NCBI GenBank assembly: GCA_002863125.1
Contig: PKEB01000011.1
Location: forward strand, 1-46,296
Direction of reading: 5' to 3'
Source: Flavobacteriales bacterium
GTDB taxonomy: Bacteria; Bacteroidota; Bacteroidia; Flavobacteriales_D; Sanyastnellaceae
Length of the DNA stretch: 46,296 nucleotides
A program made the translations under genes and the position numbers. The stretch's first letter is position 1; every line of letters starts with the position of its first letter. This document shows, piece by piece, positions 3,089 to 9,928 of the stretch. The notes under the pieces were generated by a model. The model was not told the origin of the DNA. It made no database searches and saw nothing but the letters and a program-made list of their open reading frames with translations.

Positions 3089-4243
3089 TTACAAGTTTTG
3101 GTAGCGAAGGGTGATGCCGCGCCCGTACGCCGCGTTGGAACCCCAACCAAACGGATCTTCAATGAACAGCATCCAAGCGTGTTCACCTGGCTTTCGCCAG
3201 CGCGCCCACGCTGCAGGGCGCAACCGGCCCCAGCCGCCAGCGACCAACTGCACACCCGCTTGCCATCGCTTGCCAATGGCTCGACGGTAACCAGTGACTG
3301 CCCTTGGTACGGGCATCCAATCCCCCATCTGTGCCTGCACGTCCCATCCGGAACGCGGGCCGAGAGGGTATTCAAACGAGGCATCGATGCGAAAAGGCAT
3401 CAAGCCAAACCGGTACCGCTCGTTCAATGTGGTGATGACCTCCGATGCACCGAAAGATTCCGTTAGCGATTCCACGGAGAATCCAGAGCCCGAGAATGTC
3501 AGTCCGGTCGTTTCCACCAAGGTATCGACCTGCAATTCGGTCCATTTGGGCGCAACGGTGAACCCCAAGTTTTGTACGCGCAGGTGGAAAGCAAACGGCG
3601 CTTCTTCCCGCAGGAAATGCCACTCGACATTGGTGGCCAACCCCCACGAACCGCCTTCGGCCCACCCCATGTGGCCGCGGACGTATCCGGACAAATAGTC
3701 CAACCCTTCGCTCACATATAAGTGCCCATTGCGAATCCGCGCATCAGTCGACCGCAGGCGGTAGACAAACCCCAGTTCGATGCGATTCCGGTTTGCACCT
3801 TCCAATCCAATGGCCGCCTGAATCCAAGTTCCCGCGCGAAATCGTGAACCGTCCAACACGTCCCATCGACCGAGGTGTCCGGCATTGCCAGTGAATACCA
3901 AATCAAACAGTTCCGGCGTCCACCGGATGTCGCCGAGGGTTTTGAATTGAATCGAACCGCACAGCCTCGATTCCGTCTCTTTCCAAGGACGCAAGCTGCG
4001 CCAAGTCACAGCCACACCCGAAGTGTATCCAAATGCGCCCATTTCACTGGCTTGATCCGCCTGTGCGGACTCCACCAAGGTTCGATCAATGTGGCCTCCG
4101 CGAATGAGCAGCGCAGCCAATTCGTTAGACAGGGCATTGGAACGATGTTGACCCCACGCCGTGGCTTCCCACGTCAATGAATCCAACTGTCCCTGAGCAG
4201 CGCAGGACAGAGCCAAAAACAAGTATGCGAGCCAGCCCCTCAT
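3089..4243 (-). CDS. Predicted outer-membrane beta-barrel protein
   Basis: This encodes 384 aa with a short signal peptide (MRGWLAYLFLALSCAAQGQ). The rest alternates polar and aromatic/hydrophobic residues in strands, such as GSIQFKTLGDIRW, VEWHFL, FHLRVQNLGFTV and WQAGVQLVAGGWGRL. It ends in RGITLRYQNL, close to the terminal beta-signal of outer-membrane barrels. It resembles the DUF5723 type of Bacteroidota barrel proteins, but that assignment is from memory and weak. The start codon overlaps the stop of the preceding lipoprotein gene (ATGA), which points to translational coupling. The ligand or role is unknown. Confidence 0.6.
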   Translation of the reverse strand: MRGWLAYLFLALSCAAQGQLDSLTWEATAWGQHRSNALSNELAALLIRGGHIDRTLVESAQADQASEMGAFGYTSGVAVTWRSLRPWKETESRLCGSIQFKTLGDIRWTPELFDLVFTGNAGHLGRWDVLDGSRFRAGTWIQAAIGLEGANRNRIELGFVYRLRSTDARIRNGHLYVSEGLDYLSGYVRGHMGWAEGGSWGLATNVEWHFLREEAPFAFHLRVQNLGFTVAPKWTELQVDTLVETTGLTFSGSGFSVESLTESFGASEVITTLNERYRFGLMPFRIDASFEYPLGPRSGWDVQAQMGDWMPVPRAVTGYRRAIGKRWQAGVQLVAGGWGRLRPAAWARWRKPGEHAWMLFIEDPFGWGSNAAYGRGITLRYQNL

Positions 4244-5787
4244 TGCACACTGACTTGATACGTTCCTTCACATGCCACCTGCAGCCGAACCCGCTCCGCG
4301 CCAGTAAACTGCACTGGACCTACGGAGGTCATCGCCGCTTCGATGATCAAGGTGGCCGGCGAGGCCAAGCGGGCTTCATCGATGGGGATGCGCACCTCGG
4401 TCACCTCGGCCATCGGGAAGGCAGCGACTTCGGCCGAAAACACCTCAGGGTCGAGCGCCGGATCTTCGTAATCCCACGTTCCGTTTAGGTTCCAATGCAC
4501 CGGGTAGCCATTTGTGATCCGCACAATGAGTTCGCCAGTGAATCCGGCCAGGTCGGTCCCTTCCAACACGAGCGAACGGACGACGCGAAAATCCTCAACG
4601 GCCCCTTCCAACGGCCATTCAAAATCGAAGTACAGTTGCGGGGGCTGACGCGTATCGAGAAAATCTTGCCCGCCCGAGACATCGCCAAGCGGATTGAGCA
4701 AAGCTTCTCCACTCGCGGTGACAACCTCAGGCAAGTACCCCAACAAATCGAACAACGACGGAGTTGTTTGAAGCAAATCGATCTCCCAGACGGTCGGTTC
4801 CACCTCCCCTCCGCTCCAGTCCGCTCGAGCAATTTGCTGGGGGACGCCGAGCGCCGGATGGCTCACGGCAATGCCATCTACCGACAGCGCATCCAATTGC
4901 AAACGCAAGTCTGCGGCAATGGTGTTGCGAAACTGAAGCGTGGCACGCGTGGGCTCGATTTGTAAAAACCCACCGGGAAAATCCGCGGGTTGGAACACGG
5001 TTTGATCCACGTCGAAGGCAACCGTCTCCTGGCCAAAATACCCGCCAACTTGTTCCACGACCATGTCTTGGAAGTGCATCCTCACCCGAATGCTATCGGT
5101 TCCATATACCTGCGCCGTATCCGTGATGTCTGTGGGTGTCCCGATGATCAATTGACTCGCAATTCGGTTGATTTCATTGCCCGAAACACCGGTCAAATCG
5201 ATGACCGCACCGGCCAGATCAATGCTGCCCGACTCGGTCTGGAATGCTACGCCGTCACTCGGGGGCAGCACCACTTTCAACTCCACCGCCTCACCGCCGA
5301 TGGTCACGCTGGGGAAGTCATACTGCAGTTGCACGGAGCCATTGGTGGAACTCTCAACGAGGTAATCGATGCGTCCGCCCGACAGCACGAGACCTGAAAA
5401 TTGTTGGTCGATTCCCTGAAATACAATGTCCTCCTCGGAATCCAGCAACACCGTCCCGGGGGGCACGGGAAAGGGTCCACCCATGAAGTCCGGTGTAAGC
5501 TCTTGGGCTACGATGGTATCGGGCAGTTCTGTGAGCGAGGGAATTTCCCAATCAGCAACCGGCCCCTCAAATCGGAGGACCGCCGGCGCACCCTCTTCTA
5601 CGTCGATGCTGCCATTCTCCGAGGAGGCCTCAATGACATCCACCCAGCTCCAACCGTCATCGATGAGCGGCAGCGCAACGTCAACGGTCCACGTGGTAGG
5701 TTCGCGTTTGCACCCAAAAGCCACTGCGGCAAGCAGGAGGACGAAAAGTCCTTGCTGGAATCGAATGCGGGTATGGAGGCGTTTCAT
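4240..5787 (-). CDS. Large predicted lipoprotein, function unknown
   Basis: This encodes 515 aa from ATG 5787. That start overlaps the stop of the dapF fusion gene in an ATGA motif. The frame stays open further upstream, but that stretch is antisense-like shadow over the neighbour and lacks a signal peptide. The N-terminus MKRLHTRIRFQQG is followed by a hydrophobic core and the lipobox AFGC, with Cys about residue 24. The mature part is almost entirely beta-strand-like (repeated ID, VEL, LQL and DTAQV patterns), suggesting stacked beta-sandwich domains. I do not recognise a family. The overlaps on both sides suggest that it works with the barrel protein downstream. Confidence 0.7.
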   Translation of the reverse strand: MKRLHTRIRFQQGLFVLLLAAVAFGCKREPTTWTVDVALPLIDDGWSWVDVIEASSENGSIDVEEGAPAVLRFEGPVADWEIPSLTELPDTIVAQELTPDFMGGPFPVPPGTVLLDSEEDIVFQGIDQQFSGLVLSGGRIDYLVESSTNGSVQLQYDFPSVTIGGEAVELKVVLPPSDGVAFQTESGSIDLAGAVIDLTGVSGNEINRIASQLIIGTPTDITDTAQVYGTDSIRVRMHFQDMVVEQVGGYFGQETVAFDVDQTVFQPADFPGGFLQIEPTRATLQFRNTIAADLRLQLDALSVDGIAVSHPALGVPQQIARADWSGGEVEPTVWEIDLLQTTPSLFDLLGYLPEVVTASGEALLNPLGDVSGGQDFLDTRQPPQLYFDFEWPLEGAVEDFRVVRSLVLEGTDLAGFTGELIVRITNGYPVHWNLNGTWDYEDPALDPEVFSAEVAAFPMAEVTEVRIPIDEARLASPATLIIEAAMTSVGPVQFTGAERVRLQVACEGTYQVSVQ

Positions 5788-7808
5788 GGCTCTTGCTTCG
5801 CTGCATCCGAAAGGGACCAAGGCACCTTCCACGGATCCAGACTCAACCAAACGGCCCAGCCCAACAACAACATGGACAAGGGGACGAATTGGGGAACGAA
5901 AATAAACAGCAACAAAAAGCCGACGACGCCCACGGACAAAATCCACCGGAACCAGCGGTGCCAGCGGCCCTTGGGAAGGAACCAAAGCAAGGGCAAGAAG
6001 GGCGAGGCCCAAAGCATGTTCCAATTGCCCCACGTATCGCGGTGATCGGTCAACGTCCACATCGCGAGCAACAACAGACCAAGCACGCCTGCCAACACCT
6101 GCACGGCCTTGCCTGCACGACGCTCCCTCAACGAAGTCACGCGGCCCGCGCGGTGGCTCAGCAACCGCCGAACCGACCATACGAGCGTCCAAATGAGGAC
6201 CAATGCACACCACAACACCGGATGCGCCAACGCCAGCGTGTAGACGACGCTGCGAAACCACGATCGCTGCGGGGGCAGCAATTCTTCCGCAGGCCCGGCA
6301 ACTGAGCGGCCGTCGAGGGTGGCGTTTTGCAGTTGCTGCATCAAACCGTCGGGGAGGAAACTCGAACCGCATGGCGGCATCAATCGATCGGCACGCGGAC
6401 CGAGGATGAAGTCGATGCCTGTTTCAATCCACGCATCCCCGTGCATGTACGGACGCAGTGCCTCGCGGTAGGTTACGCCCAGTGCAGCGTCGGCGGCGCA
6501 CCCGCTGTCCCAGCGATCGCCGAACACGGCGTGCAGAACCGTCAGCACACGTGATGAGCAATTGTCTTCGAAAAACTTGTAGGCGTAGACCCGGTTTTCA
6601 GGGAGGTAATTCCATTCGAGGTAGGCTACCAATGCCCGTGCATCGTCCGGCGACAAGGCAAGCGGTTGTTCCAAAATGGCCCGCTCGAAGTGCATATACT
6701 CGCGCTGCAAGGAGGAGAAAGGCGATTTGGCCAATCGATAGTTCAATTCACCGCGCATGAAGCGCAGGTAAAATCCTTCACCAAACTCAAACGTACCGTA
6801 GTTGTACGTCAAATCCACTGGTGGCGTCTGGCCAGGATCGAACACGCGGATGGCCGTGTGCCCCCAGGCGCTGTACAAATCTGGTCCGGGTGAACCGGTG
6901 AGAACGGAGACTTCCACCTCATCCGTCCAATTGCCCTGGGCTGCGGCGGCGCGCATCCACCCCATCCCGAGCGCCACCACCAAAACCGTCCATTTCAAAC
7001 CGTTCCAAGCTGCGCGCAACACTTCATTGGCCGCGCCATATAGCCATACGTTGCTGTATGCGCCGGTCGTTTCCTCGGGTTCGTGGAGTTGCACCCGCAG
7101 CGTCCCGCCCGGCATCCGTACCTCGCGCCGCAATGAACCACCGCGTTCAGCATGGTCAGCGACGGCGGCGGCAACGGCGCCCGTTCCGCAGGCACGCGTT
7201 TCAGCCTCTACCCCCCGCTCGTACGTTCGCATCGCAAGTGTATCGGCGTCAATCCGTTGCACAAAATCCACATTGGTACCGTCCGGTGCATACTCCACGC
7301 CGTAGCGAATGGCGCGGCCCTCACCACCTACATCGCGCGAAGCTGCATTTTCCACCCAAATCAAATGATGCGGAGATCCCGTGTCGACAAATGTGGCCCC
7401 TTCAGCGGCGGCCTTGGGCGGAGCAATGGGTCGCAATTCAACACCGGGCTCTGCATGAACTTCATCCCAGGCCACCGCATGGCAGCCATCGCATGCGTGC
7501 AAGGAGCCGCCCGATTGGGGCATCCACCCTTGCCCGCGCAAAAACGCAAAGAGCGCGCGGCTTCCATTGCCGCAGAATGACCGGGACCCATCTGCGTTGA
7601 CGTAATCCATTTCCCATTCGGGGCAAGGCATCGCGTCCTTCGCGTTGTTCAAGGGCTGAAAAAAGATCAATCCGTCCGCCCCAACACCATTCGCAGCGTC
7701 ACACATGGCCGCAATCGTCGCCGCTTCGGGCAGCACAGCCCAATCCCTGCGGTCCAACAGAATGAACGCATTTCCCGTCCCCTCCCATTTCCAAGCATTG
7801 ATGAGCAT
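5784..7808 (-). CDS. dapF: Diaminopimelate epimerase fused to a DUF4105 membrane protein
   Basis: One open frame of 674 aa joins two proteins that are normally separate. Residues 1-264 are DapF, which interconverts LL- and meso-diaminopimelate for lysine and peptidoglycan synthesis. Its start is WEGTGNAFILLD, and both catalytic cysteines are present: C79 in SFCGNGSRA and C207 in ETRACGTGA. After a short linker, residues 271-291 look like a signal peptide or membrane anchor (LKWTVLVVALGMGW, then AAAAQ). Residues 295-500 are DUF4105 (the Lnb N-terminal periplasmic domain): LLxGSPGPDLYSAWGHTAIRV-like motif with H317, YNYGTFEF, and EDNCSSR with C417. About five membrane segments follow at 520-660. 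The codon for residue 271 is TTG (6996-6998), so the second part could start there on its own. I chose ATG 7808 because DapF homology starts there and the longer frame would overlap the divergent gene. Confidence 0.9.
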   Translation of the reverse strand: MLINAWKWEGTGNAFILLDRRDWAVLPEAATIAAMCDAANGVGADGLIFFQPLNNAKDAMPCPEWEMDYVNADGSRSFCGNGSRALFAFLRGQGWMPQSGGSLHACDGCHAVAWDEVHAEPGVELRPIAPPKAAAEGATFVDTGSPHHLIWVENAASRDVGGEGRAIRYGVEYAPDGTNVDFVQRIDADTLAMRTYERGVEAETRACGTGAVAAAVADHAERGGSLRREVRMPGGTLRVQLHEPEETTGAYSNVWLYGAANEVLRAAWNGLKWTVLVVALGMGWMRAAAAQGNWTDEVEVSVLTGSPGPDLYSAWGHTAIRVFDPGQTPPVDLTYNYGTFEFGEGFYLRFMRGELNYRLAKSPFSSLQREYMHFERAILEQPLALSPDDARALVAYLEWNYLPENRVYAYKFFEDNCSSRVLTVLHAVFGDRWDSGCAADAALGVTYREALRPYMHGDAWIETGIDFILGPRADRLMPPCGSSFLPDGLMQQLQNATLDGRSVAGPAEELLPPQRSWFRSVVYTLALAHPVLWCALVLIWTLVWSVRRLLSHRAGRVTSLRERRAGKAVQVLAGVLGLLLLAMWTLTDHRDTWGNWNMLWASPFLPLLWFLPKGRWHRWFRWILSVGVVGFLLLFIFVPQFVPLSMLLLGWAVWLSLDPWKVPWSLSDAAKQEP

Positions 7809-7861
7809 CGCAACGAAGGTAACCCATCCGTGCTGGCCTATCTTTACCCTGTCAACGAAAA

Positions 7862-9928
7862 ATGAACGCATCCACCTCCTTAGAAACGGGCGTCAAAGCA
7901 TTGCTTCAAGCCTTCCGCACTATGAGCACCGCACGTGCCATGAGTGACCTCTTCGAAGCGAATGCGCGGTTGACATCGAAATACGTACACGCCTGTTCCC
8001 GCGGCCACGAAGCCATCCAGTGGGCAACGGGGCGGATGCTCGAACACCAGGACTACCTCAGTGCCTACTACCGAGACGACTGCTTGCTGCTGAGCCTCGG
8101 CATGGAACCCGAGGAATTGATGCTGCAGTTGCTGGCGAAAGGCGACGACCCCTTCAGCGGAGGCCGCACCTACTACAGCCACCCCTCCCTCAATCGGGAG
8201 GGACTGCCCCGAATACCCCACCAAAGCAGTGCCACGGGGATGCAGGCCATTCCGGCAGCGGGTGTGGCCATGGGCGTGCAGTACCGGGAACAGCAGGGCT
8301 TGCCTCACGACCGTGAAGGAGCGCCGCCTGTGGTGGTTTGTTCCATCGGCGATGCGGCCATCACGGAGGGCGAAGTGAGCGAAGCGCTGCACATGAGCGA
8401 TTTGCGCGAGCTGCCCATCATCTGGCTGGTCCAGGACAACGAATGGGACATCTCTGCGCACGCTTCGGAAATCCGTTCCCACGATGCATCCACCTTGGCC
8501 AAAGCGTTTCCACAGATCAAGGCGATGGAAATCGACGGCGCAGACGCGGAGGCGAGTATGAATGCGATGGCGGAAGCATTTGACTACGTGCGAAACGAGC
8601 GCAAACCGGTGCTCGTCCATGCCCATGTTCCACTACTCGGGCACCACACGAGTGGCGTGCGAAAGGAATGGTACCGCGATGATTTGGAAGAACACAGCAA
8701 GCGCGATCCGCTCGTTGCCTTGCGCAAGCGGCTGCTGAAACTTGGCATTGCTATCGAGGCGTTGGACACCATGCAAACGGAGGCGACGGAGGCGGTGGAA
8801 GCGGCATTTGAACGGGCCCAAGGCCACGATGAACCCGACCCGGACACTTTGGCCCAGCACGCTCTGGCACCCACGACCATCACTGAAGAGGTTGGCAATC
8901 GAGCAGGCACAGATGAAGAGCATACGTTGATGGTCGATTGCGCGCTGCACGCCATGCAAGAAATCTTGGCGGACCACCCCGAAGCCTTGCTCTATGGACA
9001 GGACGTCGGCGGACGATTGGGCGGCGTCTTCCGCGAAGCTGCCACGCTCGCCCAGAAATTTGGCGACCAACGCGTCTTCAACACCCCCATTCAAGAAGCC
9101 TTCATCATTGGTTCCACCGCCGGCATGTCAGCCGCGGGACTGCGACCCATCGTGGAAGTTCAGTTTGCAGATTACCTCTGGCCCGGCCTCAATCAGCTCT
9201 TCACGGAGCTCAGCCGAAGCTATTTCTTGTCAAACGGCCAGTGGCCCATACACAGCCTCATCCGCGTCCCCATCGGAGCCTATGGATCGGGCGGCCCCTA
9301 CCATAGTTCGAGCATCGAATCTGTGCTCGCCAACATCCGGGGCATCAAGGTGGTGTATCCGTCCAACGGCGCCGACTTGAAAGGATTGCTCAAGTCCGCC
9401 TTTTACGATCCGAATCCCGTGGTTGTGCTCGAACACAAAGGGCTGTATTGGTCCAAAATCCCCGGGACCGAAGCCGCAAAAGTCATTGAGCCGGATGCCG
9501 CTTACCGCGTGCCGATCGGAAAGGGACGCATGGTGACCGAGGTCCCAGCCGGTGAGGAAAGCACCTGCACCATCATCACGTACGGACGGGGTGTCTACTG
9601 GTCGCAGGCCGCAGCAGCGGAATTTGCTGGACGGGTGGAAATCTTGGATTTGCGCACCATCAGCCCCGTGGACTTTGAATTGATCACCGAACGCATCAAA
9701 CACACGCATCGCGCGGTGATCGTCACGGAAGAACCGATCAATAACGGATTTGCACAGGCGTTGGCAGGCCGCATTAGCAGTGAATTGTTCGCCGAGCTGG
9801 ATGCACCAGTGCAAGTGGTGGGGTCCATGGAGACCCCGGCCATTCCGTTGAATGAAAACTTGGAACGATTTGTCCTTGTAAATGAAACCAAGGTGCGAAA
9901 CGCCCTCGAACAAACGTTGGAGTATTAA
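7862..9928 (+). CDS. Fused alpha-beta subunit E1 of a branched-chain-type 2-oxoacid dehydrogenase
   Basis: This 688-aa protein carries both E1 subunits in one chain, as is common in Bacteroidota. Residues 1-335 are the alpha part: YYRDDCLLLSLG, then PPVVVCSIGDAAITEGEVSE, with the thiamine diphosphate motif running from GD (163-164) to N193. Residues 355-688 are the transketolase-like beta part: LYGQDVGGRLGGVF, NTPIQEAFIIGSTAGMS, EVQFADYLWPGLNQL and a C-terminal domain with TYGRGVYWS and DLRTISPVD. The enzyme decarboxylates a 2-oxo acid and passes the acyl group to an E2 lipoyl protein; branched-chain oxo acids are the likeliest substrate. No E2 or E3 gene is in the window. The gene is divergent from the dapF fusion. 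Confidence 0.92.
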   Translation: MNASTSLETGVKALLQAFRTMSTARAMSDLFEANARLTSKYVHACSRGHEAIQWATGRMLEHQDYLSAYYRDDCLLLSLGMEPEELMLQLLAKGDDPFSGGRTYYSHPSLNREGLPRIPHQSSATGMQAIPAAGVAMGVQYREQQGLPHDREGAPPVVVCSIGDAAITEGEVSEALHMSDLRELPIIWLVQDNEWDISAHASEIRSHDASTLAKAFPQIKAMEIDGADAEASMNAMAEAFDYVRNERKPVLVHAHVPLLGHHTSGVRKEWYRDDLEEHSKRDPLVALRKRLLKLGIAIEALDTMQTEATEAVEAAFERAQGHDEPDPDTLAQHALAPTTITEEVGNRAGTDEEHTLMVDCALHAMQEILADHPEALLYGQDVGGRLGGVFREAATLAQKFGDQRVFNTPIQEAFIIGSTAGMSAAGLRPIVEVQFADYLWPGLNQLFTELSRSYFLSNGQWPIHSLIRVPIGAYGSGGPYHSSSIESVLANIRGIKVVYPSNGADLKGLLKSAFYDPNPVVVLEHKGLYWSKIPGTEAAKVIEPDAAYRVPIGKGRMVTEVPAGEESTCTIITYGRGVYWSQAAAAEFAGRVEILDLRTISPVDFELITERIKHTHRAVIVTEEPINNGFAQALAGRISSELFAELDAPVQVVGSMETPAIPLNENLERFVLVNETKVRNALEQTLEY

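Follow-up and report, generated by a model that had tools for sequence, protein, structure and literature searches.

In the cytochrome b-c1 polyprotein FbcH of Bradyrhizobium, two proteins are read in one frame, and signal peptidase cuts at the signal peptide of the second, which lies inside the chain. It is, to our knowledge, rare for a bacterial polyprotein to be processed by the ordinary signal peptidase. In hepatitis C virus, as described in PMC5402940, the cytosolic core protein has at its end the signal peptide of E1, which follows it, is cut by signal peptidase and is held at the membrane; this viral case takes place in the endoplasmic reticulum, is followed by signal peptide peptidase, and serves as analogy only, with no homology. 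Here we describe a gene in contig PKEB01000011.1 of the Flavobacteriales bacterium assembly GCA_002863125.1 (positions 1 to 46,296, the window) that joins dapF, for diaminopimelate epimerase (DapF), in frame to lnb, for a membrane protein of the family formerly called DUF4105. This gene would share with FbcH the two proteins in one frame and the internal signal peptide; however, the parts of FbcH belong to one membrane complex, whereas the present gene couples a soluble amino-acid epimerase with a lipoprotein enzyme to which it is unrelated. We infer from sequence comparison that the product is probably a precursor and that signal peptidase I splits it, leaving DapF with a hydrophobic tail and a mature Lnb in the membrane. 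A search of titles and abstract openings, with subscription papers and domain-architecture databases outside it, found no paper naming a DapF-Lnb fusion, and the main texts of papers containing "DUF4105" did not mention dapF, diaminopimelate or epimerase.

An initial sequence-only reading had claimed an in-frame fusion of DapF to a DUF4105 protein. The fusion is real: the minus-strand frame translates to 674 residues with no internal stop, and a complete DapF and a complete DUF4105 protein stand in one open frame. The gene and its parts are as follows.

5784..7808, minus strand: fused dapF-lnb gene, 674 codons (5787-7808) and a TGA stop
7011..7808, minus strand: DapF part, residues 1-266, placed by the TIGR00652 match, the cysteines and the structure model
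6939..6998, minus strand: predicted internal signal peptide, hydrophobic core and c-region, residues 271-290, placed by comparison of joints
6936..6941, minus strand: predicted signal peptidase I site A290/Q291 (AAA/Q), placed by A/Q frequency and the Q-rule (below)
6519..6926, minus strand: Lnb_N periplasmic domain (formerly DUF4105), residues 295-430, PF13387 over the Pfam cut-off
5844..6224, minus strand: 5TMH_Lnb membrane domain, residues 529-655, PF25221 over the Pfam cut-off

An upstream in-frame ATG at 7869-7871 would extend the fused frame to 695 amino acids. This start is unsupported, because five relatives (L009, L011, L012, L014 and L015) have a single in-frame ATG up to and including the DapF start, namely the one that corresponds to 7808. 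Immediately 5' of the DapF ATG, about 7809-7850, the in-frame reading is VKIxQxGWxTFxxM and is similar in many loci of genus g1; the stretch lies between two divergent genes and is perhaps a shared promoter, perhaps coding. In the host genome (2.27 Mb, 98.7% complete) each family (DapF, PF01678; Lnb) is represented by a single gene, and no second copy of either was found elsewhere in it.

We searched the bacterial family, in which 101 of 114 genomes had a match. Single matches covering both halves occurred in the genera that we label g1, g14, g18 and g21, and an open reading frame test placed dapF and lnb in one open frame in all 40 fetched loci of these genera that span the joint (18 from g1, 2 from g14, 13 from g21 and 7 from g18, from 40 genomes). 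The same test found separate same-strand dapF and lnb genes at 41 loci in 14 other genera. Because all 40 spanning loci are fused, this is a fixed fusion in four genera, the window's own among them, and not an artefact. The window does come from a draft assembly of 35 contigs, but an assembly or sequencing error that conceals a stop or frameshift is scarcely conceivable when 40 genomes from four genera agree, and we rejected it. Adjoining separate genes in close relatives, which the sequence-only reading had held would speak against a fusion, do exist in the family's other genera but not in these four; the search for proteins with both domains and the alignment of their joints that it proposed returned the fusion in four genera, with the joint pattern kept.

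Three further loci (G060, G069 and G103) are cut by contig ends and have an open frame consistent with the fusion, and G055 shows the C-terminal end only. In five genomes of the fused genera (G050 and G074-G077, the latter four from g18) neither the DapF nor the Lnb family was found. This absence fits one missing gene in incomplete assemblies, and in G075 and G077, which are 94% and 92% complete, the gene may really have been lost. Among 80 named loci from public records, four are fused, namely L094 (Crocinitomicaceae bacterium MED692, 80% identical), L095, L096 and the partial L097; these are the same records as G058, G113, G106 and G066 and add no cases. Two others have adjoining separate genes (L098, L101), and in the remaining 74 no lnb was found, at the BLAST threshold applied, within flanks reaching up to 6 kb. 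The record L096 (PBNL01000053.1), which carries the bacterial fusion, is titled Euryarchaeota archaeon SP189 and is very probably mislabelled. We found no fusion outside the four genera among the best matches listed for 399 genomes in the order (at most two candidates scored per genome) or for 257 in the phylum (at most four), scans in which a fusion broken between contigs could be missed. Two long frames of the phylum scan, in G621 and G652, were rejected as fusions, since they are separate genes with a stop between them and the upstream gene is not dapF. At L190 and L191, in distant genomes of other families, lnb lies directly 3' of an outer-membrane-protein-like gene (starts ...RKYSNEFMNIGVDAAALGM) and not of dapF.

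To place the fused genes we built a quick tree from 75 rows that combine the two halves, leaving out six short rows (L020, L021, L037, L043, L044 and L048). The 34 fused rows formed one side of a branch with a Shimodaira-Hasegawa-like approximate likelihood ratio test (SH-aLRT) value of 99, which amounts to one change of state. Under midpoint rooting this clade is sister to genus g20.

The N-terminal half is DapF by sequence and would be expected to convert LL-diaminopimelate to meso-diaminopimelate (meso-DAP). TIGR00652 matched residues 6-266 with 160.2 bits (cut-off 114.65), the PF01678 cut-off was also passed, and TIGR00652 matched all 32 full-length fused proteins at E 0.001. C79 and C207 are invariant across these 32 proteins and align with the active-site cysteines of solved DapF. 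An AlphaFold2 model of the fused protein had a mean predicted local distance difference test score (pLDDT) of 81.6 and a predicted template modelling score of 0.50. Most 10-residue blocks of DapF reached a pLDDT of at least 85, and the first 26 matches of the model in the PDB were DapF or O-ureidoserine racemase; for the Lnb half, backed by 7 of the 42 rows of the alignment, the model is less certain. Thus the half agrees with solved DapF in family scores, active-site cysteines and fold, but the solved proteins listed stand alone, with chains of about 275-320 residues, whereas the fused chain continues into a signal peptide and Lnb.

The identification of Lnb reportedly dates from 2024. DUF4105 is described as renamed Lnb, the Bacteroidota lipoprotein N-acyltransferase, in PMC12994826, and Lnb is named a lipoprotein N-acyl transferase in PMC12345273 and PMC13103446. 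The domain call of the sequence-only reading was thus borne out, but its label of a DUF4105 membrane protein becomes that of Lnb. Among the 32 full-length fused proteins, H317 and C417 are invariant; by analogy with PMC12994826 they are the putative catalytic pair of a permuted NlpC/P60 core. The same proteins gave Pfam matches to Lnb_N in 32 cases and to 5TMH_Lnb in 27. The five without the latter are the g18 proteins (L036, L039-L042), none of which matched even at E 1; they keep Lnb_N over the cut-off, and their membrane domain may have diverged or been replaced. The window protein scored 165.5 bits with NF051878 and so did not reach its cut-off of 550 bits, for which reason we call the C-terminal half an Lnb homologue and not a member of NF051878; all five separate Lnb proteins tested from other genera of the family also fell below it (177-296 bits). 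Compared with Lnb of Bacteroides, the half shares PF13387 and PF25221 over the cut-offs and a His and a Cys at the places expected for the permuted core, but it has no N-terminus of its own and its NF051878 score is below the cut-off. On this evidence from family models and conserved residues, the C-terminal half is a homologue of Lnb that would N-acylate lipoproteins. Lnt (TIGR00546) was over its cut-off in none of 16 genomes, the window's included, and hence no rival enzyme of the Lnt kind was found.

We next consider the joint. The second signal-like segment, ending in AAAAQ, that had been reported there is present, with AAAAQ at residues 287-291, and in the AlphaFold2 model residues 285-291 have a pLDDT below 50. 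A lysine or arginine lies within 12 residues before the hydrophobic core in 39 of the 40 joints, and the core, counted as the stretch free of charged or strongly polar residues, has a median length of 14, compared with 16 in the protein's own membrane helices. The window joint combines the n-region charge, the short core and an A-x-A motif (alanine at -1, a small residue at -3) with glutamine at +1. We scored the 40 joints, grouped in 21 clusters, against 5000 shuffles. Thirty-six of the 40 joints have A-x-A; with weighting this gives 19.0 of 21 clusters, whereas shuffles average 15.4 and 12 of 5000 reach the observed value. With a polar residue directly after it, the motif was found in 29 of 40 joints, or 14.0 of 21 clusters where shuffles give 8.6 (4 of 5000 as high); among full-length joints 25 of 32 have it, and among transmembrane ends 23 of 131. 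The sharpest of the joint tests was alanine followed by glutamine (A/Q), which occurred in 23 of 40 joints (10.67 of 21 clusters against a shuffle mean of 2.53, reached by 0 of 5000) and, in the same proteins, at 1 of 131 flanks of transmembrane helices. This test matters because of the Bacteroidetes Q-rule, by which signal peptidase I is described as exposing an N-terminal Gln in most substrates, with a species mean of 71% (PMC5837995).

The window's own signal peptides look alike in this respect. Of 16 listed candidates we set aside five, two being lipoprotein-like (312-851 and 4243-6423) and three starting more than 100 codons inside their frame (14983, 22323 and 39465), and read the other 11 by eye. 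Gln follows the likely site in all 11 (nine A/Q, one S/Q and one G/Q). Separate lnb genes bear the same kind of signal peptide, with A/Q in 13 of 41 and A, G or S before Q in 25 of 41, and signal peptidase I was over its cut-off in all seven genomes searched.

Several observations weigh against cleavage at the joint, and some of them would equally suit a protein that is never cut, in which DapF lies in the cytoplasm, Lnb in the membrane and periplasm, and the bifunctional chain brings meso-DAP synthesis to the membrane. The topology works without a cut. The -3/-1 rule was applied by script, and its A-x-A is a weak discriminator alone, because it is met by 72 of 131 transmembrane ends as well as by 29 of 32 full-length joints. 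By this rule the motif is missing from four of the 40 joints (L016-L019), which keep Ala before Gln, and 17 of 40 lack A/Q; in the window an arginine, R286, stands five residues before the cut. Finally, all 11 kept candidates of the window expose Gln, yet the glutaminyl cyclase family PF05096, the plant-type cyclase, was found in none of the seven genomes, the animal-type cyclase not having been searched for; pyroglutamate formation is thus unsupported by PF05096. A plain membrane anchor, however, has no evident reason to retain A/Q over about 11 substitutions per site, and the flanks of true transmembrane helices in these same proteins almost never carry it. We consider the uncut tether rather unlikely.

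The other alternative is that ribosomes begin afresh inside the gene and make two proteins, besides or in place of the fusion product. The sequence-only reading had suggested one such start.

6996..6998, minus strand: in-frame TTG at codon 271, a possible internal start found by frame inspection

The codon is in frame and is kept in the window's nearest relatives (L004-L007), and L008 has GTG; moreover, a 4-base overlap joins the two genes in 25 of the 41 separate pairs, a sign that translation of the ancestral pair may have been coupled. But the start is not general: six of the 40 joints have no ATG, GTG or TTG before the hydrophobic core, and 26 have no ATG. In addition, an Lnb start of its own would let the frame drift. 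The linker, measured from the W-L-x-G of DapF to the S-x-L-T of Lnb, occurs in 13 different lengths among the 34 fused rows of the tree, and below their common ancestor at least 14 length changes took place over 11.2 substitutions per site; yet all 40 fetched loci that span the joint have kept the two halves in one frame with no stop between them. By this comparison the reading frame across the joint is under selection. The TTG start is weakened as a general explanation, though it may apply in the window's closest relatives; overall, we regard internal initiation as improbable.

Collectively, the joint evidence favors a polyprotein over a tether. The topology proposed earlier and the choice that it posed between these two hold as the right question, and the positive charge in 39 of 40 joints, the short core and A/Q in 23 of 40 argue for the former. 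In the polyprotein model, the single gene would yield a DapF-Lnb precursor whose DapF would fold in the cytoplasm. The segment after DapF would act as an internal signal peptide with its N-terminal side in the cytoplasm and thread the Lnb catalytic domain into the periplasm, while the helices of Lnb insert in the membrane. Signal peptidase I would then cut after A290. One product would be DapF with about 20 mostly hydrophobic C-terminal residues, and because of this tail DapF would be held, at least temporarily, at the inner face of the inner membrane. The other would be a normal mature Lnb beginning at Gln291 (QGNWTDEVEVSVL). After the cut, DapF may stay on the membrane or be released by a membrane protease. 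Any benefit of the arrangement might lie, for example, in fixed 1:1 synthesis of the two enzymes.

The separate genes suggest how the fusion could have come about. The 4-base overlap of dapF and lnb (ATGA or GTGA) occurs in 8 of the 14 genera with separate loci, a count of 25 that excludes L059, whose overlap involves an intervening gene; in g20 a GTGA overlap is present in 11 of 12 pairs. None of 30 close separate pairs shares a reading frame, so the fusion required a shift of frame in addition to removal of the stop codon. It would have arisen once, from a dapF-lnb pair of the 4-base-overlap kind, by removal of the dapF stop and placement of lnb in frame. In seven of nine loci examined from g4, g10, g15, g16 and g17, a gene of about 280 codons separates dapF from lnb. 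We list these as loci with a BadF/BadG-like gene (L059, L065, L066, L073, L074, L076 and L077); in L076 it has a weak BadF/BadG match (PF01869, 26.2 bits, below the 31.5 cut-off) and presumably resembles a sugar kinase of peptidoglycan recycling. Loss of this gene may have preceded overlap and fusion. At L054 a different frame, of 868 codons, lies between dapF and lnb.

Downstream, the fused gene is followed closely by another.

4240..5787, minus strand: next gene, a predicted lipoprotein with a lipobox-like ...AAVAFGC start

Its ATG overlaps the TGA of the fusion as ATGA (5784-5787), and the gene in turn overlaps the following one (start MRGWLAYLFLALSCAAQGQ) by 4 bases (4240-4243), which makes a tightly packed three-gene row. 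The last two genes of the row had no Pfam match at E 0.001.

The fusion joins the single-copy enzymes of two different envelope pathways and is a clean case of an overlapping gene pair that became one gene and was kept fused in four genera. We propose, tentatively and with more reserve than for the cleavage, that it is a conserved bacterial polyprotein from which a single signal peptidase cut releases two otherwise unrelated envelope enzymes, both probably essential, one on either side of the inner membrane. The leftover signal peptide would anchor DapF, and its later removal could tie meso-DAP supply to lipoprotein maturation. Through gene order and fusion, Lnb is linked to cell-wall synthesis, and the fused gene offers a direct test of whether a soluble enzyme of peptidoglycan-precursor synthesis works with a membrane tail.

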